Positions 5,693 through 60,324 of a stretch of 64,000 nucleotides of DNA are shown piece by piece. Position 1 is the stretch's first letter, and each line of letters opens with the position of its first letter. The notes beneath the pieces are model-generated. The model had not been told where the DNA came from. It made no database searches and saw nothing but the letters and a program-made list of their open reading frames with translations. The translations under genes were made by a program, and so were the position numbers. The stretch comes from Liolophura sinensis (taxonomy: Eukaryota; Mollusca; Polyplacophora; Chitonida; Chitonidae). The stretch covers positions 52,482,046 through 52,546,045 of the forward strand of contig NC_088302.1 of the NCBI RefSeq assembly GCF_032854445.1, read 5' to 3'.

Positions 5693-8600
5693 TTATAAAG
5701 CAGTTTTGATTCAATACACACATTCAATTTACTTCATTCAAATTTCTCCCTTACGGATGGTTATTTGAAGAAAGATACAAAACACACTTCCCAAAAGGTT
5801 GAATCACATTCATTGATTTTGATACAGGATATTGGTTCATAACATATCAGCAATCTTATAATAACGAGATCGTATGTACATCATCACAACGATCCAACAT
5901 TTAAACAATAGCTGGTCTGAGACCTCCGATTTCACAAAACACAACAAGAGACTAGCCCATAGGCTACAGGGAGATGTTCAACTATAGGTGCACCGAAAGT
6001 TGAAGTTCCAACATTATCGACCTGACTTTTAATCTTCACTTTAGGGCCTAGACATATTTTGGGAGGCGCTTTAGAGACGAGAATACCCCACTTCCAAAGG
6101 TTTTGGAAAAGACAGGCAAGTTCCCCATTTTATCATGGAGCAGCAGTGTGCTTGGCGCGTTTATTGAAGCATTTGCCCAATGATAACTTCTCTGTATAGC
6201 GTTGTTAGGACGACTGTTTCCGCTTTGGTAAAACTAGCCATTTATCCATATCAGCTCTGGCTATATTCTTCTCTGGGATGCCAGTAGGCCTAATGAGTAA
6301 ACTTGAAGCAAATGAAGATAGTATGTAAGATTGTTTCATGCTCTGTTTACAGACAACCTGAGTTTACATTATCACAGCCATAGTATGAAAACAGGGCACT
6401 GCTGTGAAAAACAAGGATGTAAATATCGTAGCTTTACCAGGAGTGGAACCCTCAGTCAAGATACACAACCAAAAATACATTATTTCCCTTTGAGAAGAAC
6501 AAAAATAAAACAAATTATTTTCCTTTGACACGAACAAAAATAAAACTGTATAGAAAGGAAGCAATTTTCAAATTACAAAGCTTCACCCTACTCTGGTTTC
6601 CTCCGATTTTACTGAAATTTGTATGTTCCGTCTTATTATCAAATATTCACGTTTTGTGACCCTAAATTTTTTTATGTGATAGGACATTCATTACATTTGT
6701 TGTGAATGTGTCTAAAAATGGTATGTAAATGTAGTGCACAGTTTGCTATTTTATTTCACGTTAATACAATATTAAATCAATAATTTTCCCATCCACCAGA
6801 TGGCAACACTGTACTAAACTCATTATCACAGCTCTTAACTTTTCTTTCATCTCCATTTCCTTATAAAAGAATTAAAACAAAAACATTAGCAGCTTGATAA
6901 ATATACTTAGCTTACCTAAATATACCATCAATGAAACTGCATAGTGTTGAAGTCATGAGATACATTAAAATATTGGCCTCCAAACCAAAAAAAAAAAAGA
7001 ATTATTAACACTGTCATACATATCGTATAATTATATAGTACCAAGATCTTGCCAATAAATCAACAAGAAAGACCAACATTAGTATACTGTTACGACTAGG
7101 ACTGTTTATCATATGCGTAAGGATTGCAGAGCAGTGATTCGTATGTTATGAAGTTGTAAATCATTGTGGTGGTAAAGCTCACTGTGGGGGACTTAGTGCA
7201 CAACTTTACCACATATGTCTTTGATATGCAAATCGCGAACTACATCTGGCAATCCATGTATTACACGGAGGCAATTGCAACCCAGTGAACAGCTGAATAA
7301 AATGTTGAGCTATGAGGTAAAAGACTTCCATGGTCTTTAATATGCAAATCGCTACCGATGATAGGCTTTCTGTGTACTCTGGGTGGCTACTGCAACCCTA
7401 TGATTGGCCAAAAACTTTCACCAAACTGGACACCGACACCTCCACCGACAACATCTGATCCCGTCTCACAATGCCTCTGCTTACTTCGTAAGGCGAGCTA
7501 AAATGAATGAGGTCTTGTCTCAGGCTACTTGATGCACACGGCCACGTAAAATTGCAAATTGAATCAACTCTGGCAGAAGTGTCTACTAACCGCCCAATCA
7601 TCACAGACAGTGTATGCTGATTATGTTAACAAACAATCTGTGAACAAAACACAGTCTACACACAGTTGAGTTGACAGGAAGCCAAAGTTGTGACGATTTC
7701 AACCCACTTTTTAAACTGTATGTAAAAGCCATCTTTTTAGTGGAATCAATATCACATTCCAGTATTATCACACTATTAACCTATTGCAAATGACCTAAAA
7801 CTTCGCTCAAACAGATGCATTTTTACAGGAAATATTTGTTATAAAGTATCACTTTTAGTGCTGAAACTTTTCTTCAGTAGGATGTCATCCTACTTTCCAA
7901 CAAAATCTCTGAATGAGGTAGAAAGAGTAGCCATGGATGAAATTTTACATTATTTACCATATTTTATCCACATTTTTAACAAAACCTAATTGTGGCCTAT
8001 CACTTCTGTATAATGTTAAGAGAAGATCATAAATTTGATTTGTACCCAAGAAAGGACCAATCATGGACAGACGAAGTTGGCAACTTCTGCACTGAGAAAA
8101 CTTTAACAATCCAATTCTTGTAAATTCTCTGTCTTTGTGAGGTTAATAAAGGCATGTGGCCATCATGATTTATCACGGAAAATAAGAAAATCTGATTTAC
8201 ACAGATTTGTATTAGTGCGTCTAGACATGTATGCTAATGTTGTGAAAAATTGAAATGACCAGGTAAATTTTGTAAAACTAAGGAGCCATGCATTTACCCC
8301 AGATAAATCCCGGTAGAGGACTATTCACTGTTGGGCTGCAAGTATGATAAACACACTGTTTGCATGACCATTCCATGCAAATCTGTCTGTAACTGCAGAT
8401 CTATAAACCAAAATAAAGTCAATTTGAACAGTATCATGTGAATTATAATTTTAGTTAAAAACAAAAACGTGACACTGTGTGACTGTCACCATCGAAACAT
8501 TAACAGTTTTCGAGATGATTTAAAAAAGCTATCACTGGATGCATTTGAGAGGTTAACATCTTCTCTTCAGGTATATGACAAACGTACTACATGCCAGACA

Positions 8601-8823: not shown

Positions 8824-11800
8824 TCAGACTGTTTCAGGAGACCTCAGACCTTTCTTAGCACCTTGATGAATATGATTCTCTAATTTATCTGGAAAAAAAA
8901 ACATAAACAAAAGTTAGCCATCACTATTCACCAAGTTTCTCAGTAGTTCATTACCTTCACCCTGTTTATAGGTTAACAGAGTAACATTAATTTGCTGATC
9001 TGAGTATTTATAAAAGAAAGACAGGTTAATGTTCCCACAAGAGAATCTTCCGAACCAGCAGGAACCAGCTGTGTGTCATCAGCACATTGTCTGATATTGG
9101 TTATCCCTTTCATGTTTATATTACTTCTGATCTTATATCCAAGTATTTCAGCACATGCTAGAAAAATATAAGATGACATGGGGTCACCTTGTCTTTAACT
9201 TCGGCTGATATTGAACAAGGACGATATAAGTCCATGATGCAGCACACTTGAGACGATATTCATTTCAATTGTTTTTAGGCGTTTTCGAAAGTGTTTTCAA
9301 AAGTTTAAAGATCTGACAACTTCCTGCATTAAGTTCCAGGAAATAGAATCAAAAACTTTCTCATAATCTACTGTAAGCAGTAATCCTGGTATTTCCTGTT
9401 CTACGGTTTCAAACATAATATGGTATATCAAACGTATATTTTGGATAAACATCTACCTGGTATAAATCCCCAATGGTCCTTGTGCATAATCATACTATTT
9501 TCAGTTTATTTACAATACCTGCCCTGATGAGATTATCCCTTAAATGTACATTTAGTAAGAGTATCTCTTGGTTTATTTGGTTTTGGTAAACATGCAATTA
9601 TCCATTGTTTCTATGTAGCTGATATTCAACTTTTTTTGAAAATCAGCTGCTGTTAAAACAAAACAACCTAAATCTTTCCAGGACATTTTATAACAGGAAA
9701 ACCATCCAACCCCTGGTTTTCTTGTTCATCTCATCAATGCTTAGCTCCTTATGCATGATTTCACCTTCTAAAATTTCAACTTAGTTTGGCAGAAAAAAAC
9801 TTGGTGAAGAGACTTGGCAGAGGTACTTGGGAGAGGAAACTTGGTGGGGGGCCTTGGCAGAGGAATCTTGGTGAAAGGACTTGGTGGATGTTCTTGGCAA
9901 CTTGGAGAAGGGACATGTTGGAAGTACTTGTCAGAGGCAACTTGATGAAGGGATTTGGCCAAGAAAACTTGGTAAAGGGAATTGGCAGAGGTACTTGGCC
10001 GAGAAAACTTGGTGAAAGGACCTGGCAGAGGCAACTTGGAGAAGGGACATGTTGGAGGTACTTGGCAGAGGAAACTTGATGAAGGGACTTGGGCAAGAAA
10101 ACTTGGTGAAGAGACTTGGCAGAGAAAACTTGGTGGAGGTACTTGGCTGAGGAGACCTGGTGAGGGGAATTGGCAGAGGAAACTTGGTGAAGGGACTTGG
10201 CAGAGGAAACTTGGTGAAGGGACTTGCTAGAGGAAACTTGGTGAAGGGACTTGGCAGAGTGAAGTTGGTGAAGGGACTTGGCAGAGGAAAGTTGGCAAAG
10301 AGACTTAGCAGAAGTACTTGGTGGAAAAAAACTTGTGGCAGGATCATGGTGGAGAGACTCGGCAGAGGAAACTAGATGAAGGGACTTGGCAGAGCAAATT
10401 TGGTGAAGGGACTTGGCAGAGTAAATGGTTAAGGGACTCGGCAGAGTAAAGTTGGTGAAGGGACTTGGCAGAGTAAAGTTGGTGAAAAGGCTTGGCAGAG
10501 GAAAGTTGGTGAAGGGACTTGGCAGAGTAAACTTGGTGAAAAGACTTGGCAGAGGAAACTTGGTGAAGGAACTTGGCAGAGCAAACTTGGTGAAGAGACT
10601 TGGCAGAAGTACTTGGTGGAAAAAACTTGTGGCAGGAACATAGTAAAGACTGGGCAGAGGAAACTTGGTGAAGGGACTTGGCAGAGGAAACCTGGTGAAG
10701 GGACTTGCCAGAGGAAGCTAGGTTAAGGGACTTGGCAGAGGAAACTTGGTGAAGGGACTTGCCAGAGGAAGCTAGGTTAAGGGACTTGGCAGAGGAAACT
10801 TGGTGAAGGGACTTGTCAGAGGAAGCTAGGTTAAGGGACTTGGCAGAGGAAACTTGGTGAAGAGACTTTGCAGAAGTACTTGGAAAAAACCTTGTGGCAG
10901 GAACATTGTGGAGAGACTCCGGCAACGGAAACTTGGTGAAGGGACTTGGCAGAGGAAACTTGGTGAAGAGACCTGGCAGAGTAAAGTTGGTGGAGGTACT
11001 TGGCTGAGGAAACTTGGTAAAGGGACTTGGCAGAAGTACTTGGAAAAAACTCGTGGCAGGAACATGGTGGAAAGACTCCGGCAGAGGAAACTTGGTGAAG
11101 GGACTTGGCAGAGAAAACTTGATGAAGGGCCTTGGCAGAGTAAAGTTGGTGAAAGGGCTTGGCAGAGGAAAGTTGATGAAGGGACTTGGCAGAGGAAACT
11201 TGATGAAGGAACTTGGCAGAAGTACCTGGTGGAAAAAACTTGTTGCAGGAACATGGTGGAGAGACTCTGCAAAGGAAACTTGGTCAAGGGAGTTGGCAGA
11301 GGAAATTTGGTGAAGGGGCTTCATTGACAATCTGAGAAGAGGAAACTTCATGGAGGGACCCTACTGCAATAAACATTTATAAATACAGGTTGAAGAAATT
11401 CAGTAAATACTTAACAATTACTGTTTTGGAATAAGACTGAACAACTAATGGTGGGAAATCAAAACACTTACAAATTTTGTGTTTGCCTTTGATTGGAAAT
11501 TTGATGACCAGTTCTTGAGGATGATCACAGATAAACACATACGCTGAAGCAGATTCTCCCTCAGGAAACTGTAAACAGACATGCTACAAACATCTCAGAA
11601 TTTCACAATCCCATGTTTACAATATACTGTACATAATGCAGGGCAACAGAATGTTAGTCATCCAATACTAAACTCCTCACAATAGAATTATGTCACAATG
11701 TGAACTTTAATTTTCAAAACAAAAAAAGCAAACTCAGTAATAATAGCTGCATGTCCCCTATTTGTATGAGGTGTCAGTAGAACAGCTGTATATCCCCTAT

Positions 11801-14800
11801 TTCTTTGCGGTGTCAGTACAGGGTGTCCCAGAAGTTGTGCACCATCCTGATTTTCATTTTTTTCTGTGTTTCAGATTTAATACTGATTTTAAATTTTTTC
11901 TCTCTTTCAGAGTTACTTATGACTAATAAACTCACAGTAAAAGAAAGGGTTGAATTGGTTTTTATGTTTGGAAGAGATGGGGCAACATACTGCTCTGTGG
12001 CTCAAGCATTCAACCTCAACCTGGATGATGGGAGACTTCTGGGACATCCTGTATAACAGCTGTATATCCTCTATTTGTACAAGGTGTCAGTACAACAGCT
12101 GTATATCCCCTATTTGTATGAGGTGTCAGTACAACAGCTGTATGTTCCCTATTTGTTTGAGGTGTCAGTATAAAAGCTGTATGTCTCCTATCTGTATGGG
12201 TCAGTATAACAGCTGTATGCCCCCTATTTGTATAAGGTGTTAGTACAACAGCTGTATGTCCCCTATTGTATGAGGTGTCCGTATAACAACTTTATGCCCC
12301 CCATTTGTATCAGGTGTAGGTATAAAAACTGTATATCACCTATTTGTATTAAGTGTCAGTATAATAGCCGTATGTCCCCTATTTGTATGAAGTGTCAATA
12401 TAACAGCAGCAAGTCCCCTATTTGAATGAGGTGTCAGTATAACAGTTGTATGTCCCATATTTGTATGAGGTGTCAGCATAACAACTGTATGTTCCCTATT
12501 TGTATGAGATGTCAGTATAACAGCTGTATATCCCCTATTTGTATGAAGTGTCAGTATAACAGCTGTATGTGCCCTATTTGTACGAGGTGTCAGTATAACA
12601 GCTGTATGTCCCCTATTTGTATGAGGTGTCAGTATAACAGCTGCATGTTTCCTATTTGAATAAGGTGTCAGTATAAAAGCTGTATGTGCCCTATTTGTAT
12701 GGGTCAGTATGTCCCCTATTTGTACAAGGTGTCAGTATAACAGCTGTATGTCCCCTATTTGAATAAGGTGTCAGTATAAAAGCTGTATGTTCCCTATTTG
12801 TATGAGGTGTCAGTATAACAACTGTATGTCCCCTATTTCGATGAGGTGTCAGTATAAAAGCTGTATGCCCCCTATTTGTATGAGGTGGCAGTGTAACAAC
12901 TGTATGTCCCCTATTTGTACAAGGTGTCAGTATAACAGCTGCATGTTCTCTTTTTGTATGAGGTGTCAGTATAACAGCTGTACATCCCCTATTTGTATGA
13001 GGGGTCAGTATAACAACTGTATGTCCCCTATTTGTATAAGGTGTCAGTATAACAGCTGTACATCCCCTATTTGTATGAGGGGTCAGTATAACAGCTGCAT
13101 GCTTCCTATTTGAATAAGGTGTCAGTATAACAGTTGTATGTCCCCTATTTCGATGAGGTGTCAGTATAAAAGCTGTATGTCCCCTATTTGTATGGGTCAG
13201 TATAACAGCTGTATGCCCCCTATTTGTATGAGGTGGCAGTATAACAACTGTATGTCCCCTATTTGTACAAGGTGTCAGTGTAACAGCTGCATGTTCTCTA
13301 TTTGTATGAGGTGTCAGTATAACAGCTGTATATCCCCTATTTGTTTGAGGTGTCAGTATAAAAGCTGTATGTCCCCTATTTGTATGTAAGTATAACAGCT
13401 GTATATCCCCTATTTGAATAAGGTATCAGTATAACAGCTGTATGTTCTCTATTTGTGTAAGGTGTCAGTATAACAGCTGCATGTTCTCTATTTGTTTCAT
13501 GTGTATTTGTATAATAGCTACATGCCCCTTACCTGTTTGAGGTGTCAGTGTAACAGCTACATATGCCCTGCCTGTGGGCTGTCAGTACAACAGTTACATG
13601 TTCCCTGCTTGTTTGAGGTGTCTGTATGAGAATTACGTGTCCCCTATCTGTCTGAGGTGTCTGTATAACAGTTGCGTGTCCCCTATCTGTTTGAGGTGTC
13701 AGTATAACAGCTACATATGCCCTGCCTGTGGGCTGTCAGTACAACAGTTACATGTTCCCTGCTTGTTTGAGGTGTCTGTATGAGAATTACGTGTCCCCTA
13801 TCTGTCTGAGGTGTCTGTATAACAGTTGCGTGTCCCCTATCTGTTTGAGGTGTCAGTATAACAGCTACATATGCCCTGCCTGTGGGCTGTCAGTACAACA
13901 GTTACATGTTCCCTGCTTGTTTGAGGTGTCTGTATGAGAATTACGTGTCCCCTATCTGTTTGAGGTGTCAGTATAACAGTTAAGTGTCTCCTATCTGTTT
14001 GAGATGTCAGTTTAACTGTTACGTGTCCCCTATCTGTTTGAGGTGTCAGTATAACAGTTAAGTGTCTCCTATCTGTTTGAGATGTCAGTTTAACTGTTAC
14101 GTGTCCCCTATCTGTTTGAGGTGTCAGTATAAGTTTCGTGTCCCCTATCTGTTTGAGATGTCAGTATAACTGTTACGTGTCCCCTATCTGTTTGAGGTGT
14201 CTGTGTAACAGTTTCGTGTCTCCTATCTGTTTGAGATGTCAGTTTAACTGTTACGTGTCCCCTATCTGTTTGAGGTGTCAGTATAACAGCTACATATGCC
14301 CTGCCTGTGGGCTGTCAGTACAACAGTTACATGTTCCCTGCTTGTTTGAGGTGTCTGTATGAGAATTATGTGTCCCCTATCTGTTTGAGGTGTCAGTATA
14401 ACAGTTAAGTGTCTCCTATCTGTTTGAGATGTCAGTTTAACTGTTACGTGTCCCCTATCTGTTTGAGGTGTCAGTATAAGTTTCGTGTCCCCTATCTGTT
14501 TGAGATGTCAGTATAACTGTTACGTGTCCCCTATCTGTTTGAGGTGTCTGTGTAACAGTTTCGTGTCTCCTATCTGTTTGAGATGTCAGTTTAACTGTTA
14601 CGTGTCCACTATCTGTTTGAGGTGTCTGTATAACAGTTACGTGTCCCCTATCTGTTTGAGGTGTCTGTATAGCAGTTATGTGTCCACTATCTGTTTGAGG
14701 TGTCTGTATAACAGTTATGTGTTCCCTATCTGTTTGAGATGTCAGTATAACAGTTACGTGTCCCCTATCTGTTTGAGGTGTCTGTGTAACAGTTTCGTGT

Positions 14801-17800
14801 CTCCTATCTGTTTGAGATGTCAGTTTAACTGTTACGTGTCCCCTATCTGTTTGAGGTGTCAGTATAACAGCTACATATGCCCTGCCTGTGGGCTGTCAGT
14901 ACAACAGTTACATGTTCCCTGCTTGTTTGAGGTGTCTGTATGAGAATTATGTGTCCCCTATCTGTTTGAGGTGTCAGTATAACAGTTAAGTGTCTCCTAT
15001 CTGTTTGAGATGTCAGTTTAACTGTTACGTGTCCCCTATCTGTTTGAGGTGTCAGTATAAGTTTCGTGTCCCCTATCTGTTTGAGATGTCAGTATAACTG
15101 TTACGTGTCCCCTATCTGTTTGAGGTGTCTGTGTAACAGTTTCGTGTCTCCTATCTGTTTGAGATGTCAGTTTAACTGTTACGTGTCCACTATCTGTTTG
15201 AGGTGTCTGTATAACAGTTACGTGTCCCCTATCTGTTTGAGGTGTCTGTATAGCAGTTATGTGTCCACTATCTGTTTGAGGTGTCTGTATAACAGTTATG
15301 TGTTCCCTATCTGTTTGAGATGTCAGTATAACAGTTACGTGTCCCCTATCTGTCTGAGATGTCAGTATAACAGTTATATGTCCCCTATCTGTTTGAGGTG
15401 TCAGTATAGCAGTTAGGTGTCCCCTATCTGTTTGAGGTGTCTGTATAGCAGTTACGTGTCCACTATCTGTTTGAGGTGTCTGTATAACAGTTACGTGTCC
15501 CCTATCTGTTTGAGATGTCAGTATAACAGTTACGTGTCCCCTATCTGTTTGAGGTGTCAGTATAGCAGTTAGGTGTCCCCTATCTGTTTGAGGTGTCTGT
15601 ATAGCAGTTACGTGTCCCCTATCTGTTTGAGGTGTCAGTATAACAGTTACGTGTCCCCTATCTGTTTGAGGTGTCTGTATAACAGTTATGTGTTCCCTAT
15701 CTGTTTGAGATGTCAGTATAACAGTTACGTGTCCCCTATCTGTTTGAGATGTCAGTATAACAGTTATGTGTCCCCTATCTGTTTGAGATGTCAGTATAAC
15801 AGTTACGTGTCCCCTATCTGTTTGAGATGTCAGTATAACAGTTACGTGTCCCCTATCTGTTTGAGATGTCAGTATAACAGTTACGTGTCCCCTATCTGTT
15901 TGAGATGTCAGTATAACAGTTACGTGTCCCCTATCTGTTTGAGATGTCAGTATAACAGTTATGTGTTCCCTATCTGTTTGAGGTGTCAGTATAGCTACAT
16001 GCCCAAAACTTAGGCTTGATCTGCAAATTGTCCATGGTGAATCCATGTACCAAGTTTTAAACAACAAACTGTTATGATGAACACAATTTGTTGTAGGTGA
16101 CAACTGATGATTCCATCCAAATCTTCCATTCCGTTCCATTTTTTGAACTCACTTCCATTTTTGTCATTCACTGAATGACAATTAACATAAAAACAACTTC
16201 AACTCAACCAGTCTGTACTACAAATACTCCTATATGAAGTTGGCTACAGATAAATAAATGTCAAACAATAAACATCCCAATATCAAACATCAGAGGTCAT
16301 GATTGATATCCCAGGATAGATATCTTAGTTATGGATATCCCATAATAGATATCATATTGGCCATGTCATTAACAGGAGGTTTCACACAAAGAGTCCAGCA
16401 CATTCACACAGTGTTACAGACAACTTATGTCATATAGCGGATGTATAATATGCTAAATATGTAAAATAACATCATCAAAGACCGGTTTCCTTCAGGTTGT
16501 TAATGCAGTACCTTTTGCCTGTACTCTTCTTGGCCCAAACAGTCCAGCACATTCACACAGCCCAACAGACAACTGACTGGGTACTGTGTGGGGAACTTAA
16601 GCTTAGGATCTGGAACAACAACGGTGTAAATAACACATATACATAAACATATCTGTTTAATAAAACAATCAGTGTTTACATAATTCATGTAGAATACATG
16701 TACACTTCCTTCGTGTTTGGCTGTAGGACTCTTCAAGTTGGGTGGTGTACAATGGCTGCAGGACGGTCTATAATTGATGTAGGACAGTACTGATGGATGC
16801 TGGATGGCAAATGGCATTGACAACTGTAGGACTGTGCACAGTGGCTATAGGATGGTGTATAATTGATGTTGGACAGTACTGATGGATGAGGAATGGCAAA
16901 TGGCATAGACAGCTGTAGGACTGTGTACAGTGGCTATAGGATGGTTTATAATTGATGTAGGACAGTACTGATGAATGAGGGGCGGCAAATGGCATAGACA
17001 GATGTAGGATTAGTGGCTATAGGATGGTGTATAATTGATGTAGGACAGTACTGATGGATGAGGGATGGCAAATGGCATAGACAGCTGTAGGCTTGTGTAC
17101 AGTGGCTATAGGATGGTGTATAATTGATGTAGGACAGTACTGATGGATGAGGGATGGCAAATGGCATAGACAGCTGTAGGCTTGTGTACAGTGGCTATAG
17201 GATGGTATATAATTGATGTAGGACAGTACTGATGGATGAGGGATGGCAAATGGCATAGACAGCTGTAGGACTGTGCATAGTGGCAGCAGGATGGTGTAGA
17301 TGTGTACAATGCACATGGAGACAGATTGGGTGTCGACATTTTACATCAGTCCTTCCATGCCTGCTACATACTGGTTTGAACTTGAGCATAATTCTGAGGT
17401 TGGATAAACAAAGTAACACTTTATGTATGGGAATGTATGTACAACAGCAATTAATGATTTTTCCACTAAAAATTTATATTCAACACAGAAAACATAGACA
17501 TAGACATGTACTATAAATCTTCAACCTTTTCACACGTTTTCAAGGTGTTCATTCAAGCATGTTTATTTATTTATTTGACTGGTGATTTACGTTGTACTCA
17601 AGAATATTCAATATGGCCAGCATTATGATGCAAAAGCCATGGCAAATCTATTCAAGCATATTCTGAAGGCATTATTCTGACTGCATTAATAAAATTATAC
17701 CTTTTGTGAAGCCCTGAAAGTGATCAATCCAGCTACAGTAGTTTTGTCTCCAAAATTCATTTGTTAATGAGCACAAATTGCACTGAAAGTTGATCTTTTG

Positions 17801-20800
17801 TATGAGAAAAACGTTGAGGACTGACTCACCATTGTAGTACTGTCTATAGAACTGTTCAACGTCCTCAATGTCATCTTTCTCGGGGGTCTTGCCAGTGGCA
17901 GCTATCCACAATCGACCCCTGTGGGGGGTGTACCAGGTCCTGCCCTCATGTCTACAGCAAGAGAAAAACAAATCAAAACGTTGTTTATTTGCGCTGCTCT
18001 TTTATGAGATCAACTGTAAGAATGCACCACTTTCACTTTTCACAAGACTTTATACATTAATCAACTTTTAAAGCAAATCGAATGTCCTTATAATGAAAAA
18101 AAAAAAATCCTTAATGGTGTTATAATGAAAAAAAAAATACAGCTTGAAATCATTTTCAAATAAAACGGAAAGACATTGGACATACAGGTAGAAAAAGATT
18201 TGTGAAAGTGAACCTGGCTGCCAACTTACCTTGTGAAGCAGACATATCCCATTGGAAAAATGCCATTTCATCACCAAATGTAATATTCTACTTTATCATT
18301 TACTTAAATAAAAAACAGTAATTTATCTGCTTGAAAAATGCACTTTTGGGGTAACATTTCAGGGCAAATACAGCACCTTTTTAACTGTATCTAAGTGTTC
18401 TTTCAACATGAGAGGGTAAAAGACCAATGAACTTATCAGGCTTACATTTTTATGCCTTTGATGAGAAGTGATGCCCAAGGCTGATGTATACTCAGGCTTA
18501 CTTTTTTATGCCTTTGATGAGAAGTGATGCCCAAGGCTGGTGCACAATCAGGCTTACTTTTTTATGCCTTTGATGAGAAGTGATGCTGAAGGCTGGTGCA
18601 CAATCAGGCTTACTTTTTTATGCCTTTGATGAGAAGTGACGCCCAAGGCTGATGTATACTCAGGCTTACTTTTTTATGCATTTAATGAGAAGTGATGCTG
18701 AAGGCTGGTGCACAATCAGGCTTACTTTTTTATGCATTTAATGAGAAATGATGCTGAAGGCTGGTGCACAATCAGGCTTACTTTTTTATGCCTTTGATGA
18801 GAAGTGACGCCCAAGGCTGATGCACAATCAGGCTTACTTTTTTATGCATTTAATGAGAAGTGATGCTGAAGGCTGGTGCACAATCAGGCTTACTTTTTTA
18901 TGCATTTAATGAGAAGTGATGCTGAAGGCTGGTGCACAATCAGGCTTACTTTTTTATGCCTTTGATGAGAAGTGACGCCCAAGGCTGATGCACAATCAGG
19001 CTTACTTTTTTATGCCTTTGATAAGAAGTGATGCCCAAGGCTGGTGCACAATCAGGCTTACTTTTTTATGCCTTTGATAAGAAGTGATGCCCAAGGCTGG
19101 TGCACAATCAGGCTTACTTTTTTATGCCTTTGATGAGAAGTGATGCCCAAGGCTGGTGCACAATCAGGCTTACTTTTTTATGCCTTTGATGAGAAGTGAC
19201 GCCCAAGGCTGATGTATACTCAGGCTTACTTTTTTATGCATTTAATGAGAAGTGATGCTGAAGGCTGGTGCACAATCAGGCTTACTTTTTTATGCCTTTG
19301 ATGAGAAGTGACGCCCAAGGCTGGTGCAAAATCAGGCTTACTTTTTTATGCCTTTGATGAGAAGTGACGCCCAAGGCTGATGTATACTCAGGCTTACTTT
19401 TTTATGCCTTTGATGAGAAGTGACGCCCAAGGCTGGTGCACAATCAGGCTTACTTTTTTATGCCTTTGATAAGAAGTGATGCCCAAGGCTGGTGCACAAT
19501 CAGGCTTACTTTTTTATGCCTTTGATGAGAAGTGACGCCCAAGGCTGATGTATACTCAGGCTTACTTTTTTATGCCTTTGATGAGAAGTGATGCTGAAGG
19601 CTGGTGCAAAATCAGGCTTACTTTTTTATGCCTTTGATGAGAAGTGACGCCCAAGGCTGATGTATACTCAGGCTTACTTTTTTATGCCTTTGATGAGAAG
19701 TGATGCTGAAGGCTGGTGCACAATCAGGCTTACTTTTTTATGCCTTTGATGAGAAGTGATGCCCAAGGCTGGTGCAAAATCAGGCTTACTTTTTTATGCC
19801 TTTGATGAGAAGTGACGCCCAAGGCTGATGTATACTCAGGCTTACTTTTTTATGCCTTTGATGAGAAGTGACGCCCAAGGCTGGTGCACAATCAGGCTTA
19901 CTTTTTTATGCCTTTGATGAGAAGTGACGCCCAAGGCTGGTGCACAATCAGGCTTACTTTTTTATGCATTTAATGAGAAGTGATGCTGAAGGCTGGTGCA
20001 CAATCAGGCTTACTTTTTTATGCCTTTGATGAGAAGTGACGCCCAAGGCTGATGTATACTCAGGCTTACTTTTTTATGCATTTAATGAGAAGTGATGCTG
20101 AAGGCTGGTGCACAATCAGGCTTACTTTTTTATGGCTTGGATGAGTGAGTGAATGCTTGGGTTTAACATCGTACTTAACAATTTTTCTATCATATGACAA
20201 CGAAGGGGTCCTTAGAGTACATGTAATATGCCTCCTTCTTGCAGGACGAAATTTGCACTATCCCCTTATCGCTGAACGCCAGGGAGGAAGCTACAACTTC
20301 CTCTTTTAAGGTCTTAGGTGTGACCCGACACAGGACTGACCCTGAATCTACCGCCCCCAAAGCGGACGCTCTACCAAGCGAGCCACTGGGGTCTGTCCTT
20401 GGATGAGAAGTGATGCACAAGGCTGATGCATACTCAGACTTACTTTTTTATGCCTTTGATAAGAAGTGATGCCCAAGGTTGGTGCATACTCATGCACATT
20501 CCTTCGTCATTCATCTCCTGTAATTCTCTATCCTGTATTCGTACAGATGACCTCTTATCCACATTACCATTGTCCTCTGACCTTTCACCTTTGACCTTTT
20601 TACTGTAACTACCACCTGGTGGTACAAACTGAAAGCAAAGCAGACAGAAATTTGAACAGTGTCATTCAATATTTACTTGTTCAACAATACATACCTATTT
20701 ATTCAGCCATTTATGCTCAAGAGGAAAAACTGATGTCCTCAATCTATCCTGACAAAATATGTGGGATTTTTCTGTATACTGTTTCCATGATCAGCCCATG

Positions 20801-23800: not shown

Positions 23801-26800
23801 TGACATCTATTTTGTGGTAGGTCTGCACAATTACACTCCACATAACAGACAAAATTTCGTGGCCTGCATATAGCTCAGGGCTCTGCAAATACTGATTAAT
23901 TTCAGTCTAATAATGACCTTGTATTATTTTTATCATATCTCCATGGAAGGTAGGGTACTTCCACTCCACCAGGTAGTAAGCAACATTATTCATATTCCAC
24001 TAAGTAGTAGGCAACAATTCATATTCCAGTAAGTAGTAGGCAACTTTATTCATATTCCACTACGTAGAAGGCGGCTTTATTCATATAAGTAGGCAAGTCA
24101 GTCTACTTTCTCAATTTCAGTCATGCTTATTTCCTAACCTTAATGAACATTTAAAAATTTTCCCTCAGAAATCTTCCTAAATACTGATATACACAAAAAC
24201 TAACACAGAGTCTGATTTTTCAAAAAACTGAATTTCTAATGTTCCAAAGTTAAATTTTTGGTCAATCTGAATTTGAATCTGATCTAAATTAATATGGACA
24301 TTTTTGACTTCCAGGAAGTATGTGCATATTAAATCACAAGTGACAGAAAGACAGAAATGAAGATAAAGATCAAAGACTAACCTGGTTCTATCATAATCTA
24401 GCAGTCTGTCTTTATGCTGTAATGCCTTCTCAAAGCCAGCTTCCATTTTTGCTACAGTGGTTGGCAAATAATCTCGATTATCTCCTTTGGTCAAAAACTG
24501 TCGTAACTTTTCACTCTTTTTTGAACCTCGTGATAAAATCTCCTGTTCTTCTTGGGTACACACCTGTAAACGTTTTCGTGAAAAAATCATCAATTTTGTA
24601 CTCTTATAATTCTTCCTGCTCTCATACTATACAACTCCATATTCCTCATTGCAATTTCATTATTTTAGACGAAAATGACATATACCTATTCCATGTGTGG
24701 TCACTGTCCTAAAAACCAAAATTTGGAATGGCTCTCATTCCAAAAACATTTTACTTCTGAAAATAGAACTGTACAGTGGAATTCGAATTTGAAATACATG
24801 CAACAGATTAAAATTAATATCCAGTATTTGTCTACGTTTTTCCTCTCCCTGTGAAAGAAGATTTACAAGACTCATCACCTCTCCACAGAAGAGACAGGGA
24901 CCAGAGCCCTCTTGCTCACACACCACTCTCTCACACCGCACACTGATCAGACAACTCACCACCTCTCCACAGAAGAGATATGGACCAGAGCCCTTCTGCT
25001 CACACACCACACACTAATCAGACAACTCACCACCTTCCTACAGAAGAGACAGGGACCAGAGCCCTCTTGCTCATACATCACTCTCCCACCCACACACTAA
25101 TCAGACAACTCACCACCTTCCTACAGAAGAGACAGGGACCAGAGCCCTCTTGCTCATACACCACTCTCCCACACCACACACTAATCAGACAACTCACCAC
25201 TTCTCCACAGAAGAGACAGTGACCAGAGCCCTCTTGCTCACACACCACTCTCCCACACCACACACTAATCAGACAACTCACCAACTCTCCAGAGAAGAGA
25301 CAGGGGCCAGAGCCCTTCTGCTCACACACCACTCTCCCACACCACACACTAATCAGACAACTCACCACCTCTCCACAGAAGAGACAGGCACCAGAGCCCT
25401 CCTGCTCACACACCACTCTCCCCACACAACACACTAATCAGACAACTCACCACCTTCCCACAGAAGAGATATGGACCAGAGCCCTTCTGCTCACACACCA
25501 CACACTAATCAGACAACTCACCACCTTCCTACAGAAGAGACAGGGACCAGAGCCCTCTTGCTCATACACCACTCTCCCACCCACACACTAATCAGACAAC
25601 TCACCACCTTCCTACAGAAGAGACAGGGACCAGAGCCCTCTTGCTCATACATCACTCTCCCACCCACACACTAATCAGACAACTCACCACCTTCCTACAG
25701 AAGAGACAGGGACCAGAGCCCTCTTGCTCACACACCACTCTCCCACACCACACACTAATCAGACAACTCACCACCTCTCCACAGAAGAGACAGGTACCAG
25801 TGCCCTCTTGCTCATACACCACTCTCCCACACCACACACTAATCAGACAACTCACCACCTCTCCACAGAAGAGACAGGCACCAGAGCCCTCCTGCTCACA
25901 CACCACTCTCCCACACAACACACTAATCAGACAACTCACCACCTTCCCACAGAAGAGACAGGGACCAGAGCCCTCTTGCTCATACACCACTCTCCCACAC
26001 CACACACTAATCAGACAACTCACCACCTCTCCACAGAAGAGACAGGGAGCAGAGCCCTCCTGCTCACACGCCACTCACCCACACCACACACTAATCAGAC
26101 AACTCACCACTTCTCCACAGAAGAGACAGTGACCAGAGCCCTCTTGCTCACACACCACTCTCCCACACCACACACTAATCAGACAACTCACCAACTCTCC
26201 AGAGAAGAGACAGGGGCCAGAGCCCTTCTGCTCACACACCACTCTCCCACACCACACACTGCTCAGACGACTCACCAGTTCTTCACAGAGGAGACAGGGA
26301 TCAGACCCCTTCTGCTCACACACACCTGTCACACACTGATGAGACAACTCACCGCCTTTCCACAGAACAGACACGGACCAGAGCCCTCTTGCCCAAACAC
26401 CACTCTCCCACACCACACACTGATCAGACAACTCATCAGTTCTCCACAGAAGAGACATGGACCAGAGCCCTCCTGCTCACACACCACTCTCCCACATCAC
26501 CTACTGATGAGACGACTCACCAACTCTCCACAGAAGAGACAGGGACCAGAGCCCTCTTGCTCACACACCACTCTCCCACACCACCCACTGATCAGACGAC
26601 TCACCAGTTCTCCACAGAAGAGACATGGACCAGAGCCCTCCTGCTCACACACCACTCTTCCACATGACACGCAGTTACTGATCAGGCGGTGCTTGGAGGC
26701 TTGGCACTCACAACAATGACGACCTGACAAAGAACAACAATGAGTTAGGATTTACTTTTCTCAGAAGCTGAAACTGAAACGAAACCTTCTTTTACCAGAT

Positions 26801-29800
26801 TATTTCTGAAGGTTGTAAATGACCTAACATTTAATCCACCGCTAAGTCGCTCATTTTGCCTGATTCTGTTGGTCTTGGAAGTCATTTTCAGTTTGTTTGG
26901 AAGGTAGGATGATGTCCTTCTGGAGAAATATAAGACTCAACACAAAATTATCATATTTTAATTTGGATATACCTTGGCGTAAATATTTTGGGCCATTACA
27001 TTACATGTACTTCAAAATCAAACTATAGCTATAGAACTTCTATAGGTTAAAATTGCTATTTTAACTGCTGAATTGCAAATTTGTTACTCTACATGTGTAT
27101 GTTATTTATACACAACTGAGTACATTGGTACATATGTAAAATTTCAACATAAATAAAAACTGCAATTTTTTATAATATCTGAAGGCTGAAATCATGAGGG
27201 GACTCGAGGAAGATTGATTTGTCACTAACCGATCTCCCTCAGAAAATAAAGTATTATTATTTTTATTATTATTATCGCGATAAAGACTACAGCATGGTGG
27301 CCTGAAAAGGCCATTTAAAGAGACAAATAAAGGTCATACTAGAAAATATAATATTTGGCACTGAAGCCCTTAGAATATCATCTCGCTTTTCAACCAAACT
27401 TAATAACATATTTCTAAGATAAACAAAATTCCTACAATGAGGAAAAGTAACTAATCAAAGTCATGTACAAACTTTTTGTTGATATACATACCAGAAATTG
27501 AAAATATTTACTTTTCACCTTAAATGCAAACATACATAAAAATGTCAGTGCACAAGAACGTATGAGAAATAAATACCTGGTATCTGTATTGCGCTCCTGG
27601 CCTTTCCCTCCTGACTATATAGGGGAACAAACTTGTTTTTCTTCTTGGGTGAGTTGGAATGTTTCTCAGACTGTTGGATGTCTACATTCAAGTCCTGAGA
27701 AAGGTAAAAAATGTTGCATGGTCGTCCCAAGCAAAGATTTGTCTGGTGTTTTATTTAACTTATAGACGTTTTAGGGCCATTTCAAGCCAGGAACAATGCC
27801 AAAATCACACGTTATACATGCACTGAAGATAAAATTCTTACAAAAAGAAAAATTTTTTTGTTGACTTCCCTCAATCAGAAGACATTGTTGTAAAAATACA
27901 ACAATATTATTAATGGATACCAGCAGGTGGCAAAGCCTCTGAAATAATCAAAAACATAGCATTTATTACGCACACTTCTGTTGACAATAACTCCCACCTA
28001 CCTACAGTAAATCCCCTATAATATCAATCAATCATCAATAGTCAACCTGATGTATAACGTGAAATTTAATATCATTCTCTGTAGCATCCATGTACATGTA
28101 AACAGTTTAGTTACAAGCAACTGTGGTTTATTTGCCTCACGTATCAGTCTTATGGTCTGTAACTGGCATAAACTGGACCAGTGCAACGACACTGACTGTA
28201 ACAATGCCTCATGGAAAACAATGCCTCATGGAAAACAATGCCTCCTATTGCCTTGTAACACTCACACCAAAATGGTCAACTTGTCAACTAAAGTGAGAGC
28301 AGTGTTTCAGCTCTGGTTTTGAGGTTGGTATTGAAATGCATGTATTTTTAACACAATAAGTCAAAACAACACTATTTATCTTTATTTTCAAAACTGATTA
28401 TCATTCATATACATACCTCCATTTCACCAGCCAATTGCATTAGGCCATTCACAGTTGGAAAGGGAGGCTGGGCATCCGTCTCCATGACAACCTTCTTTAC
28501 TGGTGAAGGTTTTTTAACTACTCCACTAAAATAACTTTCCTCTTCCTCAGGTTTTTTATATACCTATGTGAAAACATAACACACTCAGTTTATCAGAGAG
28601 TTAAAAATGCCTTAAAATATGTGAAATTACCGGGTAGTTTACCAAATAACAATTTGAAATTAATATCCAAGACAAAAAGAAACTAAAAAAGCTTGAAATC
28701 AATGACCCATGGTCTTAAGCTTTCTGACTTATTAATTTAAGAGTATTTTACTTTCAGGTAAAATTTTAGCACTAGAAACTCCCTCAAAACAGGCACCCCA
28801 GCAACACTTTACCTGCATAACATTGCATCACTGTCACTTGTCTATAGAGCTGAAATGCCATATCTAAGCTATAAGGAGATGACTCTCCATCCAATCACAC
28901 GATACAGAGCTGCCTCAATGACAAGTCATGTCTTCAGACACCACACACAATGCCCATCGAGTCACAGGATACTGTTAAACTTATAGTTTTGCCTTACTGA
29001 CACACTATGTCTGAGACACCAGACATGACATCCACTCAGTCACAGAATACTGTCATGTATATAGTGCTGCCTCACTGATATGCCATATATTAGACACCAG
29101 AGATAACTCCCCATCCAGTCAAAGGATACTGTCATACTTCCAGTGCTGCCTCACTGACAGGCCATGTTCGAGACACCAGTATGACTCAGTTGGTAGAGCG
29201 CCCGCTGTGAGGTGGTGGATCCAGGGTCAATCGCAGGTCGGGTCACACCTGACCTTAAAAGAGAAAGTTGTTGCTTCTCCTCTTGGCGTTCAACATTAAG
29301 GGGCTAGTGCAACAACTGGTTGACCCGTATGCCTTTAATAAGTCATCTCAGTGAAGCAGCACTAGATAAATGAACGGTCGAAATCCATTCTGCAGCAAGG
29401 AGGCACGTTACATGTACATGCACTACATATCATACGACTGAAATATCGTTAAGTATGACGTTAAAACCTAAGCACCCACTCACTCCCAGACACCAGACAT
29501 GACACCCAACCTGATCACACGATACTGTCATGTATATAGTGCTGCCTCACTGACATGCCACATTTAAGACACCAGAGGTAACTCCACATCCAATCACACT
29601 AAACTGACAATGGCACAATTAGTAAATAGATGACTAACTGTTCAAGTACTGGCCAGCCCTATGTCAGTATTACGTATGAAGATATAGCAAGAGTTATTAT
29701 ATGTAGCTTAACAAAGTTACATCATTAAACTGTCTAAGGAATTAAATGTAGCTAAGGAACATTGAGATTATTTCATTTCAGTTGGCCAACATCACTTCAT

Positions 29801-39730: not shown

Positions 39731-42700
39731 TTACATCCCTCCCAACATTTGGAAATAAAGCATGAGATCTTAGTCATCATAGATCTGCTATTATGCACAC
39801 GATATAAATCGAAATATCAAAATTAACTGTCCGTATAGTCAAGCTCTGACTCTTAGGCTTTGAAGAGCAATGAAATGTTAAGCACTTTATATGCTGTACT
39901 TGTTAATAATTAAAGGTACAAATAAAACAACTAAAAGTTCAAATTGTTCATTATTGGAGGGTATCAATCAGAAATGTCAATCACGAGGTTATATAGTCTC
40001 TGAAATGAACCGATGGCTGTCGTCTACGACTGGAAACTCATGGTTGCACTGATTCATCATGGCTGTGAGCGGGAGTGGCATCATCAGCAAGGTCGTCGTC
40101 ATCAAGGTCAATGTCACTGATGTGACTGTTGGTGGTAGTATCTGAACATGTATTATTAGATCTCAACACTTTCATAAATGATGAGTTTCTGGTGATGGAG
40201 TGATCTCCATGTTTAACGGTGATCATTGATCCTTTCACTGCGGTGACTTTATACGGGTTGGAGTTGAACAGAGGTTTAAGTTTACCCTTTTTCTGGTTGC
40301 GTAGAAGTACGATATCACCAACACGAATGGCTTAGCCTGTGCGTGAAGATCAACATAATACTTCATTCTCTATTTGGCGCCATCGTCTTTAACCTGGATG
40401 TCGCATTGAGAGACTGGTTGGGCAAGTTGTGGTAAAGTTGTGCGGTACGGTCTGTTGATTAGTGGTTCAGCAGGTGGTTTGTCAGTTGAGCTGTGGGGCG
40501 TTGCACGGTAACTCCTTAAGAATTTGTATAGTTCCTGTTTCCATGGCTTTCCTTCAGCTTCAGATGCACGCATGGCTTTCTGTAAGGTCTTGATGAACCT
40601 TTCTGCATCACCATTAGCTCTTGGCCAGTACGGCGTGATTCTCCGGTGTTTGATAGCTAGGTAATCGAGGAACTGGTGAAACTCTGTACTATTAAATGGA
40701 GGTCCACTGTCAGTTTTCAAAACTGATGGTATATCATGTGTGGCAAATATCTTGTCAAAGGCGGGAATGGTGATTCGTCATAGACAATCAGTAAGTAGTC
40801 TCCAGAGGGTAATGGTCCAACGAAATCTGCACAGACGTTTTCCCATGGTGCTTGCGGGAACACAGTCATCTTGAGCGGTTCTTGACGGGAAGAGTTTTCT
40901 AGGGTTACGGCCTGGCACGGGATACAGTTATGAATGGTTGTCTCCACGAGTTTATCGATACCAGGGAACCAAACCTTTTGATGAAGCAGTTTCTTTGTTT
41001 TGACAATACCTTGATGTCCAACGTGGGCGAGGTCGCACACTCGCTGTTGAAGGCAGGCTGGTATCACAATGTGGGAACCAAACAGGAGGATACTTCCCTC
41101 AGAGTTTACTGATAACTCAGTGTGCACTGTAGCAAAGGACTGAAGCTGTCTTGCTGTAGCGCTGTCAAGCTTTGCGTTAACATTTGGTCTGTAGGCAGAT
41201 TTCCATTTGCTTGGAGCATCTGGTGACTGAACAGGGTGTCTGGACAGAAAATCAGCTGGATTGTCATGTCCTGGGCGATATGTTACGTTGTACGAGTATC
41301 CTTGAAGCTCTGTTTGACTGTAGCGTTGTTCAACAGGAGTGAGGGATCGACTGGCATAGGAGATTGTCTTGGTGTGGGAAGAGCCTTTCTGAGTGAGTGC
41401 TGCTCCGAGTCCTACGTGACTTCCGTCAACTATGAGTTCATCAGGTTTTGATGGATCATAGTAGGCCATAACACTTTGTTCAGTTAGGGCAGCTTTTCGT
41501 GCAGTGGCTTCAACAAGGTCGCAAGATTGGGGATAAAGCGAGCGCAATATTGTACCATGCCGAGGAAGCTTTTAATTTCAGTTGCATTCGCAGGGCGGGT
41601 GGTGTTTTTGATGGCTTTCACTTTCTTTGGATCAGGAGAAAGACCATCCTTTGTGAACACATATCCGAAGAATTCAATCCTCGACTTGCTGAATTCACAT
41701 TTCTCACGGTTCAGAGTGAGGTTGAGTGCTCGTATGCGCAGTAAAGTTGCCTAAAGTCGTTGATCATGTTCTTGCTGGTCACGTCCATGGGGAAATACAT
41801 CATCACTAAGGTTAATAACACCAGGTAGTCCTTGAAGAGCCATTCTGATGTGGTTCTGGAAGACTTCGGCAGCTGAACACACCCCAAAGTTCAAGCGTTC
41901 GTATATGAAGAGGCCCACATGTGTAGAGAACGTTGTGAGGCTGCGGGATTCTGGGTGAAGTTCGATTTGGTGGTAACCAGCATTCAAGTCGAGTTTGGAG
42001 AATATCGTAGATTCATTCAGTTCAGATATGATATCATCCAGAGTGGGAGTTATGTGTCGTTCTCGCTGAATTGCTTCATTTGGTACGCGCATGTCAACAC
42101 AAATTCTGATCTGAGATGGGTTTTTAGGTTTCTCGACTACACGGATAGGGGACACCCATGGTGTGGGTACATCACCAACTGGTTTGATAATGTCAAGTTC
42201 AAGTAGTCGTTTGAGTTCTGCTGTCGTACGTTCACGCAGATTAAACGGGAGACGTCTGTGTTGGTGAGCGACGGGTTGTACGCTGCTGTCCACATCTAGT
42301 TTGGCTTGAACACCTTTCAATTTACCAAGTCCAGTAAAGCAATCCTTGTACTTAGACACGATTTCATTTGTAAGCGATGTAGGACAGTACTGTATTTCAC
42401 AAATACACTCTGTAATATTAAGAAGTCCAAGATCCACGCATGTGCTGTAGCTGAGTAGAGTGTCGAAATTTCCTGGTGTGATGTAGAAGGTTGTTTGCAC
42501 AGATTTATTTCCGGCTGTGACAGTTGCTGACAATTTACCTACTATTTCTAATGACTGGCTAGTGTTATAGGCAAATATCTGCAGTAATTTGTCCATATCA
42601 CGTGCAGGCTGTGGAGTAAGCTGTGTGAATGTTGTCTCACTCAACATGTTTACCTGTATCGATTACAGCTTGGAGTGTTTTTTTTTCGTTGACAGCGACA

Positions 42701-43744
42701 GTTACTATTGGTTGTTTTGTGAAAATTCCATCACTGTGACTGTATACGCTGAATACATATTCAGCATCTGAACTGGAGTCAGCAAGGTGTGCAGCGCTTC
42801 TGACTTGCTTGACAGATTCAAATTTGCCAGTGTCATGCTGTTGACGTATTTTCTGTCGGCAAACGGATTCAAAGTGATTAAATCTATTGCAAAATAGATA
42901 TGCCTTTCCCTTAGCTGGACAGGTTTTTCCTTCTGGGTGGGGATATGCATAGCCACAATATCTACAGTATTTACTGTGAGGCTTGTTGCTGGATAGTTTC
43001 GCATTTTTCCGAATGGATTTGCGGGCAGGGGTTGTTCTGTTTTGCTGTGACTTGTTTAATACAGTATTTACCGTCTCTGGGATAGGCTGATTGGGCTGTT
43101 CAATCGTCTTCGCCTGGCGTTCGGACTGTTCCATAGCTCTAGCTAGATTTAATATGTCCATCAATTTGAGGCCTGGATCACGCAGAATGCGTTGCCGAAT
43201 TCTGTTGGAGCTACATCATGGTATAAGCTGGCCTTTGATTTCTCTGTCTTGATCCGAGAATTCGCATGTAAGGGCTAACTGGCGCAGACGTGTAGCGTAC
43301 GTGTCCATTGTTTCACCTACGTTTTGCTTAGTGCTGCGAAATACGTATGTTTCATAGTCAATGTTTCGTCTGGGGTTGAAGTGAGCATTCAGTTTCTCTA
43401 GAGCTCCTTCTAGGATTAACAGGGCTCTTTGGCGCTTTTTATCCGCGATATCCATGGCAACTAGAAGATTTTGGAAACGTCGGACATATTTAGTCCATCG
43501 TTGAGCTATTGATGAAGGGTCACTGTGCACGTCGAACGAAGGGAATGTCGGCAGTGACTGGGCCATCGTCATGTTGTTGTTGCAGCCGCGTGTGCTGTGC
43601 GCCACAACAGCTGAGTGGAACAAAAGTGACGTAAAATTCACTGGTTTAGAGTGATTTTTCGGTAAAAAGTTAATTCCTGCGTGTTTTCTGAGTCACAAAA
43701 TGTCTTACTGATAACAATGTGTCCATTCTCATCGCCAAATATAA

Positions 43745-53400: not shown

Positions 53401-56400
53401 AATTTTCTTTGGTTGCAAGTGCACTGTAAGAATTATATTTTCTCAAACTTTTGGAACGCTACATATATACTGTTTATTTTAGTCATATTAACAAACCATT
53501 ATTATTTACATATGTATACACTTTTGGTGAAGCCCTAACCCTGACATTGCTGTCACAGCCAAGCTAGTAGAATGTTCAGATTACGAACATTACCAGATCT
53601 TCATTCTTCCCAGCTTACCTTTCAGAAATACAGACCCTTCAATTCACTAACCTGGAACTTAATCTTTTCGAGTGTGCTGTCCCCAACATATCCAAGCTGT
53701 AAGCTACAACAACAGGTTCCCTATAATCCTATGGTAATTCTGAGTCATCTAGTCACATGAATACTAAAACCATAATGCCACCCCAAACATAAATGGACCT
53801 GTCGCACTGAAAGCAAGCCAGACTTCACTTAATCTGTACTATCAACCAGTTATCATACTCAATATCGTCCGGAAAAAGATATCTTGTGGAACGTTTAGAT
53901 TGAAGCCAAGAAGATTAAACCTCGTTTGTGGGTCGCAATATTATTTTTTTGTTTTTCAGGAAATTAGAAAAAGGAACTACAAACAATTACTAATAAAACA
54001 GATCTTAATTTTCAAGACGGCAGCCGAGTTCACCCAAACAATGAAGACATGATTTCAAAATGTAACATTGCAAAGCTCGGATGCTGTCCCGTGGATACTT
54101 TCGTTACTTTTGTGTTAATTGCAATGTTATGGTCGTTATCATTCTAACATAATGAGGTGATATGAATTCAGAATTACTTAAAGAACACTGGAAAACTGTT
54201 TCGTCATATATAGCTTTGACACCTTGAGAGTAGTACAGGCAACAAGACCATATTCTAGATTTGTGTATTTATCAATTCAGAGCGGTTAATAAGGAAGCTC
54301 CAAGAACATGGCCACCCAATCTCAGACTTACATGTAAAACTCTTGAAGAATCAGTGAATACATGTAAATAAATCCACTGGCTCATAGTCAGCACATCAAC
54401 TTGCAAGTAAAACATTCAGAGAAAAGAAATAAAAAAAATTGTGGACTCAACTAACAGGATCATTCACATGCTCTTAATTATAAATAGTGAAAAGTTAAAA
54501 CTGCAACCAAAGCAAAGACCTTCAATCTGTTAAGTACATGAAAACAAATAGGTATATTTATATCATAACTGGTATAAACAACTGAATACTGGTTTGAAAA
54601 AAATCCATAAATTTATTAACTACATTCAAATAGCATCTAGAGAACAAAAATGTACAGACAGACATGCTTTGTGTTTTGAGAAACTAGTGTAAAATCAATG
54701 ACACGGATTGAAAAGTCGCTGTCTGCATGAAGTTAAGACTCCTCATCAAGGTGTACGCATTAAATGACAATATACAAGGTTGAGGGCAGCATTGGTTATC
54801 TCCCCTTGATTACTGATGTGGGGACTGAGGCAAACGCTAAAGAGTGTAACAGGACAGAGGACGGTGTTGAGGATATCTGGACATGCTGTAGGGGCATAGG
54901 AGAGCCCGGGACGAGAGAAAAACCGGCTCCTACCTTTCTTACCTTAGTTGTGGCAGCACCGTGCCGATCTCGCCCAACATCTTTATTATTGGGGGAGATG
55001 CCAGAATCGGCAGCAATGGAACTAACTGGGGTGGCCTGAAACGGGGAATAAAACCAGCTCTACATGTAGCAATGGCATATGTTTTTACATCCTGCAGACA
55101 TCCACAGGTGGTTTGCTGGGTACTGCAGATTTCATGTCCTACTTTTCAAAATGGATAGGTTCCAATATATATATTATTTCTACTATTTTTTTTATCACTA
55201 CACTTTTGTACGCGGATCACATATTTTCCCCGTTTGCAAGCTGCAAAAACGCACAGCCAAACTGAAATTCCATACAAATTAAAGGTGGAATAAAGAGAAC
55301 AAAACTGTACTTCACTTCACTTAAACTAAGCAAATAATATTATCCACACACATATACCAAGAAATGACAAGTAAACACAAAATGTACTTTATGAGGGAGG
55401 GGCAATAAAAGAATGGGGAACCATACACAAGTCAGAAATAAATATATTTTAAAACATGTTAATACATGAATTATTTATAATGAGGAAAACAAAATTCAGA
55501 AATTAACATACACTCACATGGATTAAAACCAGTCTTTAGCAAAAGAGAGGACTTCATCTTATCCATAATAGAAACATGTGATTAAACAGTAATACTTGGT
55601 TATTCGTTCAAATGGACATAACATGCTGTTTCTCAATAAACCTGATGTCTAGTAAGCCAAAGATCAATACTTCTAAATGGCTGTACATCTAACAGCCACA
55701 TTAATGCTGTTGACTACATGTACAGATGTAGGAATACACAATTACATGTGACACATACATGTACATTTACAGACTGAAGATACTTTCAGTTTATACACAA
55801 ATCATAAACAGAACTTGGGACAGAAGATAGTATTAAACTTACCAGCTGCCTGCCAACCCAGTCAAATTCCCAATCACAGTCCCAGCCCATTTTTTCCAAG
55901 AGATCTGTAAACAGCTTCCTAAGGTAGTCGTAATCCGGGGTTTCAAAGAAGTCTAATCGTCGGACGTAGCGTAAATATGTTGCTAATTCTTCTGAAAGCA
56001 AGCCACAATTGAATCAAGTCTTGTGCTTGATGCATAGAAAACTAACTGTTCTACTTAGCTGTACATATCTAAATTCTTTTTGATTAGTGTTCAAGATGTA
56101 CTCGTGAGTTTTGCATCTATATTTAGGCTACAGGTCTGGTTTATGGGTGTCCTGAATAAACCACTGGCCATTGCTATGAAATGACAAACCTAATGACAAA
56201 AAGGAAGCTGCAGAAGCAGAAAGAGATGGATTTGAACCAATGAAGGCTTCACTTTCATGTACAAAATGCCATGCAGGTGTATCAATCCTTTTAATTGACA
56301 TTTGTACACATATGTAAAAAGGATTCAATGACCAGCCTGTGCTATTCAGCAAATGTTCTTTATATCAGTGGATCTACGGCAACATGAAGAAGCATACATG

Positions 56401-59385: not shown

Positions 59386-60324
59386 CTGTTACGAAAAACC
59401 AAAACCAGTAACAGTTAATACCAGATACATTTGTGAAAGAAATACATTACACATTAGAACACAGAAAATATAGGATGGATATGAAAACAAATAAACATTC
59501 CTTTATGAACTGGTTTGTTACTACACAGCAGCACAAGTGTCAAGTGTCATATCACTATCAGCTACTGTTTGATCGAACAATGATTATTTCTCACTTAGGC
59601 CCCACAAGAGAAAAAATAAAAGCAATAACAGGCCAACTGTTACTGAGTTTTATAATTAATAATAATTCAATCTTTTTATAAATTTTAGATTCCACAGATA
59701 TTACACGTCCAGTGTATGCATGCATGTACAGGTAAACATAGCACATAACACACATTCACTAGGTGTTGTTTTAAGCATATACTCCGGTCATTTCTCTAGA
59801 GATGAATTTATCACAATAACTAAAAGATGTAGATGGATGAATTACCTTCATACACTTGTGAAAAGGTTGAAGGAATTGGGTAATAAATGGTTTAGTGATG
59901 ATGTCATTGAGTCCTTAAACCAGTCCAAGTACATGTACTTACAAACCTTGTAAGAAAAATGAGCAGGGCTGCCATGTAGACAATTATATAAGATGTCTTA
60001 CGGAACTAGTGGCAATTTCCCCATAAATTTGAAAACAATGTGGTGAAAGAATTTATGTTACTGAAAAAAAGAGAGGATGAAATAACCTAGTTGTCAACAT
60101 TCTTCTCTCATGAGATTTCTCTGCTTAAGCAGCTGGTTCTAGGCCAAGATAGTAACGAGGGATCCTGACTTTATTTTACCTCCTGTAATGGTTACAGTTC
60201 TACAATATTGTGTAATAGTTGCTGTGTAATGCTATTACTATCAAACATACATGTACACATGCATACTTACACAGACAATACATTTGCTTCAGATCATAAA
60301 ATTAGTGAAACAAGTGTTCACTTA

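Follow-up and report, generated by a model that had tools for sequence, protein, structure and literature searches.

How does a gene come to carry 21 copies of one of its own exon-intron boundaries in the intron that follows, and are the additional 5' splice sites used? The question is raised by the TRIP4 (ASC-1) gene, which lies on the minus strand of a 64,000-nucleotide stretch of DNA (the window) on contig C8 of the Liolophura sinensis assembly (609 Mb in 632 contigs; 609,464,459 bp in total). The earlier note, made from the letters alone, had attributed this DNA to a mollusc, and its source is indeed a chiton. According to the accessible part of the original description, the assembly was published as Liolophura japonica, with 632 scaffolds, 609,495,693 bp and HiFi reads of 8,347 bp on average at 14X (PMC11068029); the species name was later corrected to L. 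sinensis by the assembly authors. We consider, with a probability of roughly 85%, that the array behind the zinc-finger exon (array A) is a 'mirage', that is, a minisatellite derived from a tandem duplication straddling the 5' splice site, which is tolerated and of which the first copy is the one used.

Anatomy of the two TRIP4 arrays

The translated finger exon together with the next exon matches Pfam zf-C2HC5 with E = 1.7e-10, in agreement with the earlier identification of a TRIP4 C2HC5 finger exon, and the translated TRIP4 exons also include an ASCH domain (E = 6.5e-10, Pfam). The best protein match is the same species' 'activating signal cointegrator 1-like isoform X2' (NCBI; P0001 in what follows), which is 99% identical. 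This predicted protein, one of the two members of its cluster, has a single finger and uses the first donor at both array A and a second array, array B, which derives from the end of the ASCH exon (Table 1). The finger exon is bordered by ...tttgtcag upstream and by gtgagtcgtc downstream.

Table 1. Features of the TRIP4 locus, in positions of the window
Feature	Position	Strand	Remarks
TRIP4 zinc-finger exon (exon 5 of the earlier note)	26605..26723 (119 nt)	-	array A unit derived from 26685-26605
Functional finger-exon donor, GTGAGT	26599..26604	-	first of 22 unit donor positions; joined in P0001
Array A, 21 intronic copies, mostly 84 bp	24867..26595	-	exon end plus nine intron bases; 19/21 donors intact
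Next TRIP4 exon (VCTQEEQ...)	24382..24563	-	spliced to the finger exon in P0001
ASCH exon, domain start (...MHQPWASLLIKGIKK)	20444..20628	-	array B derived from the exon end
Functional ASCH-exon donor, GTAAGT	20438..20443	-	
Array B including the insertion, 31 copies of 56 bp	18436..20434	-	46 exon and 10 intron bases; first copy split
Insertion of about 250 bp in the first copy of array B	20145..20397	-	TCATCCAAG on both flanks

The finger exon resembles array A up to position 26685, which is 81 nt into the exon. Counting the functional one, there are 22 units (about 26685-24867), mostly spaced at 84 bp and in some cases at 83, 77, 71 or 85 bp. Each intronic copy is composed of about 75 nt of exon sequence (6 nt shorter than the 81, as read by eye) and nine intron bases, an anatomy that agrees with the earlier description of the array as the 3' part of the finger exon plus nine intron bases with a donor. 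The 21 copies match the exon unit at identities of 0.76-0.86. When they were globally aligned to it and compared with shuffled sequence, as the earlier note had proposed, they scored 49.3 on average with a minimum of 39.5, versus an average of -0.4 and a maximum of 14.0 for 1,050 shuffles. GTGAGT is kept in all copies except the third and last units, which have ATGAGT. In a whole-genome DNA search, which gives lower-bound counts and omits common words, the unit had at least 22 matches, all of them at the TRIP4 locus. Moreover, units 6, 7, 10, 12, 13 and 15 pair with units 17, 18, 16, 19, 20 and 21, respectively, at identities of 0.97-1.00, and these near-identical pairs indicate block duplication and thus past turnover of the array.

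In array B, the sequence at the donor position is GTAAGC in all 31 copies, compared with GTAAGT in the real donor. As judged by eye, the TCATCCAAG that flanks the insertion in its first copy is likely a target-site duplication, and the insertion itself looks SINE-like; ARAGORN and Rfam gave no match to it.

Since tandem arrays are difficult to assemble, both could in principle be artefacts of the assembly. However, they measure about 1.8 and 1.7 kb, whereas the reads average 8.3 kb at 14X in the accessible part of PMC11068029. The units also differ from one another, and unrelated arrays of the same design are present elsewhere in the genome, so that an artefact is very improbable.

A tolerated minisatellite could have formed in four steps. 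The first would be the duplication of a segment reaching from the interior of the exon to about nine intron bases, at a junction with no more than a few bases of homology; by eye, the overlap at the duplication junction is about 1 nt in array A, as read from the flank of the last unit, and 3 nt (TGA) in array B. Unequal exchange or slippage may then have expanded and homogenised the array. Since the copy still connected to the body of the exon would retain the complete exon as well as the first donor, splicing would stay there and the later copies would be intron. That the functional copy is the one used would explain why the others are tolerated. From then on, the copies would drift as intron DNA, with their donors retained through the homogeneity of the array.

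Reading frame and donors of the copies

The earlier note had also proposed that every unit repeats a peptide, which holds in part. Indels shift the frame and unit 3 has an in-frame TAG in its linker; the peptide and a single frame are not kept by all units. The common unit length of 84 bp is divisible by three, and runs of units are open in one frame, from which one might suppose that array A consists of amplified zinc fingers, which are coding now or were so formerly. This is hardly credible, given the TAG, the units of 83, 77, 71 and 85 bp and the one finger of P0001. Moreover, the codon-position test is flat: no codon constraint was detected in array A, where the variable columns by codon position are 10/20, 12/20 and 9/19.

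Regarding the donors, the about 20 strong 5' splice sites claimed before are borne out, as 19 of the 21 copies of array A are intact and have duplex energies of -9.2 or -9.4 kcal/mol, compared with -9.2 for the functional donor, when calculated with what we take to be the sequence of the U1 end. For the array B copies the predicted pairing with U1 is weaker, -4.5 (-4.3 in the last copy) versus -5.6 for the real donor. The 19 decoys of array A thus match or slightly better the energy of the real donor, which would suit regulated splicing, in which some decoys are used and either insert 28 residues in frame (donor 2) or, if they lie further on, reduce the output of TRIP4 through a premature stop. 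Indeed, the second donor of array A is in frame and open, and its use is predicted to add 28 residues. In the human IFI6 (6-16) gene, a minisatellite reportedly supplies multiple splice donors, several of which are said to be used, whereas in array A it is only the second donor that is in frame and open. All intact decoys after donor 2, 18 in number, lie past a stop in the frame of the exon, and most decoys are therefore predicted to bring in a stop if used; read-through of array B runs straight into TAA. In addition, one 140-residue open stretch of translated array A has one weak protein match (E = 5.8e-4, 29% covered), and a second EGSGPC motif occurs in none of the 120 TRIP4 relatives listed.

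The donors also lack pooled conservation. In ten boundary arrays taken together, 15/60 splice-core columns and 166/534 other columns are variable, with P = 0.38 in a test whose alignment columns are not independent. Arrays A, L010 and L025 taken singly lean towards conserved splice sites, the 6-mer windows conserved at least as much as the splice core being 12/84, 4/25 and 8/37, respectively, which counts against the mirage reading; the pooled test is flat, however, and the idea of conserved decoy donors was not retained. We consider regulated splicing unlikely on these grounds, and the first donor is probably the one used in cells, as expected of a tolerated mirage. With 20-30 near-identical donors in the same exon context, such arrays are natural experiments on how the spliceosome chooses by position alone.

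Comparison with amphioxus mirages and other systems

The array had been called unusual in the earlier note. It is real, but it is one of two in the gene, more of its kind exist elsewhere in the genome, and the kind has already been named 'mirages' in amphioxus. According to the accessible part of the amphioxus study, the intron/exon boundaries of globin genes and of Adh3, 5' as well as 3', have undergone minisatellite-like duplication; the copies show concerted turnover, splicing was regular by RT-PCR, and a route to intron gain is suggested (PMC3087553). The portion available of a second study (PMC3902484) adds troponin C (TnC) and PGBD5, the latter with two such arrays, as further amphioxus mirages. 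As far as these portions describe them, amphioxus mirages share with the chiton arrays the tandem units across a donor or an acceptor, the many copies with AG/GT and the concerted turnover, and PGBD5 shares with TRIP4 the presence of two arrays in one gene. In the chiton, units spanning the boundary, AG/GT in the copies and the involvement of both 5' and 3' boundaries were all found. On the other hand, the chiton copy numbers are 21 and 31, compared with 3 and 6 in the BflGb6 haplotypes and up to 7 in PGBD5 in the same portions. Adh3 and globin transcripts were examined in amphioxus according to that text, while the chiton arrays are known from DNA and from the predicted protein P0001.

The present results extend a cephalochordate phenomenon to a mollusc. 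As far as the accessible portions of the literature examined go, three points are new: the phylum, copy numbers higher than those reported before, and an initial estimate of frequency, obtained from a set of kinase exons. Among the best-ranked matches in the open-licence literature, we found no boundary minisatellite in a mollusc. In the available text of two chiton genome papers, the words 'tandem', 'satellite' and 'intron' are absent from PMC11068029, while in PMC12005716 'satellite' is absent and 'tandem' is used once, for gene duplications. Intronic minisatellites and exon duplications that are missing from the final transcript are reported for an earthworm in the accessible part of PMC12783039, and are not clearly of the same kind.

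Intron gain through AG/GT tandem duplication is the subject of earlier work (Rogers 1989; Zhuo 2007; Gao and Lynch 2009, as cited in the accessible part of PMC3087553). There, as in the chiton, the splice signals are copied internally, whereas in the chiton it is an existing intron that is lengthened. If the estimated frequency holds, the chiton arrays could be used to ask whether boundary duplications feed intron gain. Introner-type elements, by comparison, consist of one element dispersed over many loci. No such dispersal was found, as the array A unit is confined to the TRIP4 locus in the whole-genome search (a lower bound) and 11 unit types had no match beyond their home locus in 363,086 bases.

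Boundary arrays elsewhere in the genome

Boundary arrays arose repeatedly in this genome, at donors as well as at acceptors. Of 138 matches to PF00069, we surveyed the 36 whose open frame does not exceed 130 aa, and in the 94,575 bases fetched there were 20 merged arrays with a period of at least 20 (TRF). Splice-boundary arrays were found at 4 of the 36 kinase exons, at the donor in L033 and L040 and at the acceptor in L025 and L026, whereas 0.77 would be expected if 20 units were placed randomly over 72 boundaries, assuming two per exon (Poisson P = 0.008). A fifth kinase boundary array, in L036, derives from the preceding kinase exon, which was recovered with 1,400 more bases; it was left out of the four because that exon is outside the list of 36. 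With two donor and two acceptor arrays in the kinase set, the idea that boundary duplications are tolerated at donors only was dropped.

A second sample consisted of 20 stretches of 10 kb from contig C8, 18 of them spaced and two adjoining the window. Eight arrays were viewed by eye and five were assigned to four unrelated exons, belonging to DIS3L (PDB match, 3.3e-8), an Ig domain (I-set, E = 0.006 and 0.0022, under Pfam's cut-off), an EGF-like domain with two inverted copies (cEGF, 2.6e-4, also under the cut-off) and TBCK, a name borne by one of ten homologues of an exon that has no Pfam or PDB match. At L018 the EGF-like exon and its donor array occur twice, inverted, within about 7 kb (80-384 and 6947-7110). 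Since the choice of arrays on C8 favoured donor motifs, the ratio of donors to acceptors was taken from the kinase set only, and the number of boundary arrays in the 200 kb is a minimum, because frames at the array edges were followed for five peptides only. With four independent cases per 200 kb, as sampled on this one chromosome, there would be about 12,000 boundary arrays genome-wide (Poisson 95% interval, about 3,300-31,000). If this frequency holds, such arrays would be found at a few percent of the exon boundaries of this chiton, in donor and acceptor forms. Tandem repeats are dense in general, with 65 arrays over 32,148 of 264,000 bases, the window included.

Some candidates were not retained. 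An excess of donor motifs in 44 array consensuses (10 versus 6.06 expected, s.d. 2.20, from shuffles) was not convincing, and for this reason we relied on exon-anchored loci instead. L049 starts about 13 nt into the intron and was not counted, and no exon could be named for L012 and L011, which have donor-like units, or for L002.

Random placement does not readily yield the boundary rate of the kinase set, and the initial duplication may thus not be neutral toward splice sites. A preference for boundaries, seen in four cases from one domain family in one genome, is suggestive only. We would therefore propose only tentatively, and with more doubt than belief, that minisatellites arise preferentially at splice boundaries in L. 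sinensis, for example through continued re-seeding of the array from exon copies under selection, or through DNA events linked to splicing that promote duplication there. If so, the genome would hold thousands of boundary arrays, a lasting supply of decoy splice sites and material for new introns.

The predicted strength of the decoys varies among arrays. In L040 they are stronger than the real donor, with U1 energies of -9.5 (one of -8.2) versus -5.7, which makes this locus a good test case for position against donor strength; its decoys (about 1405-1749 in gene orientation) read AAG/GTAAGC, and the real donor of the kinase exon AAG/GTATGC. The decoys of L006 mostly about equal the real donor (-10.7 to -11.2 versus -10.7), with two lacking GT, and most of those of L010 equal it (-9.1), a few being weaker. 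In L033 and in the two L018 arrays, some decoys equal the real donor and others are weaker. These mixed energies indicate that there is no systematic weakening, although weakening does occur. Weaker decoys, namely all those of array B and several in L033 and L018, are what selection against competition would give, and count against the mirage reading.

Other minisatellites lie in and around TRIP4, at 615-2438, 9797-11321, 12051-15993, 16745-17298 and 28903-29179 of the window; their off-array matches, among those listed (at most 12 per array), miss the located TRIP4 exons. By eye, retroelement-like frames (integrase-like and zinc-knuckle-like) can be seen on the minus strand at about 40000-43700, and frames of a casein kinase I-like gene on the same strand at about 55800-59450.
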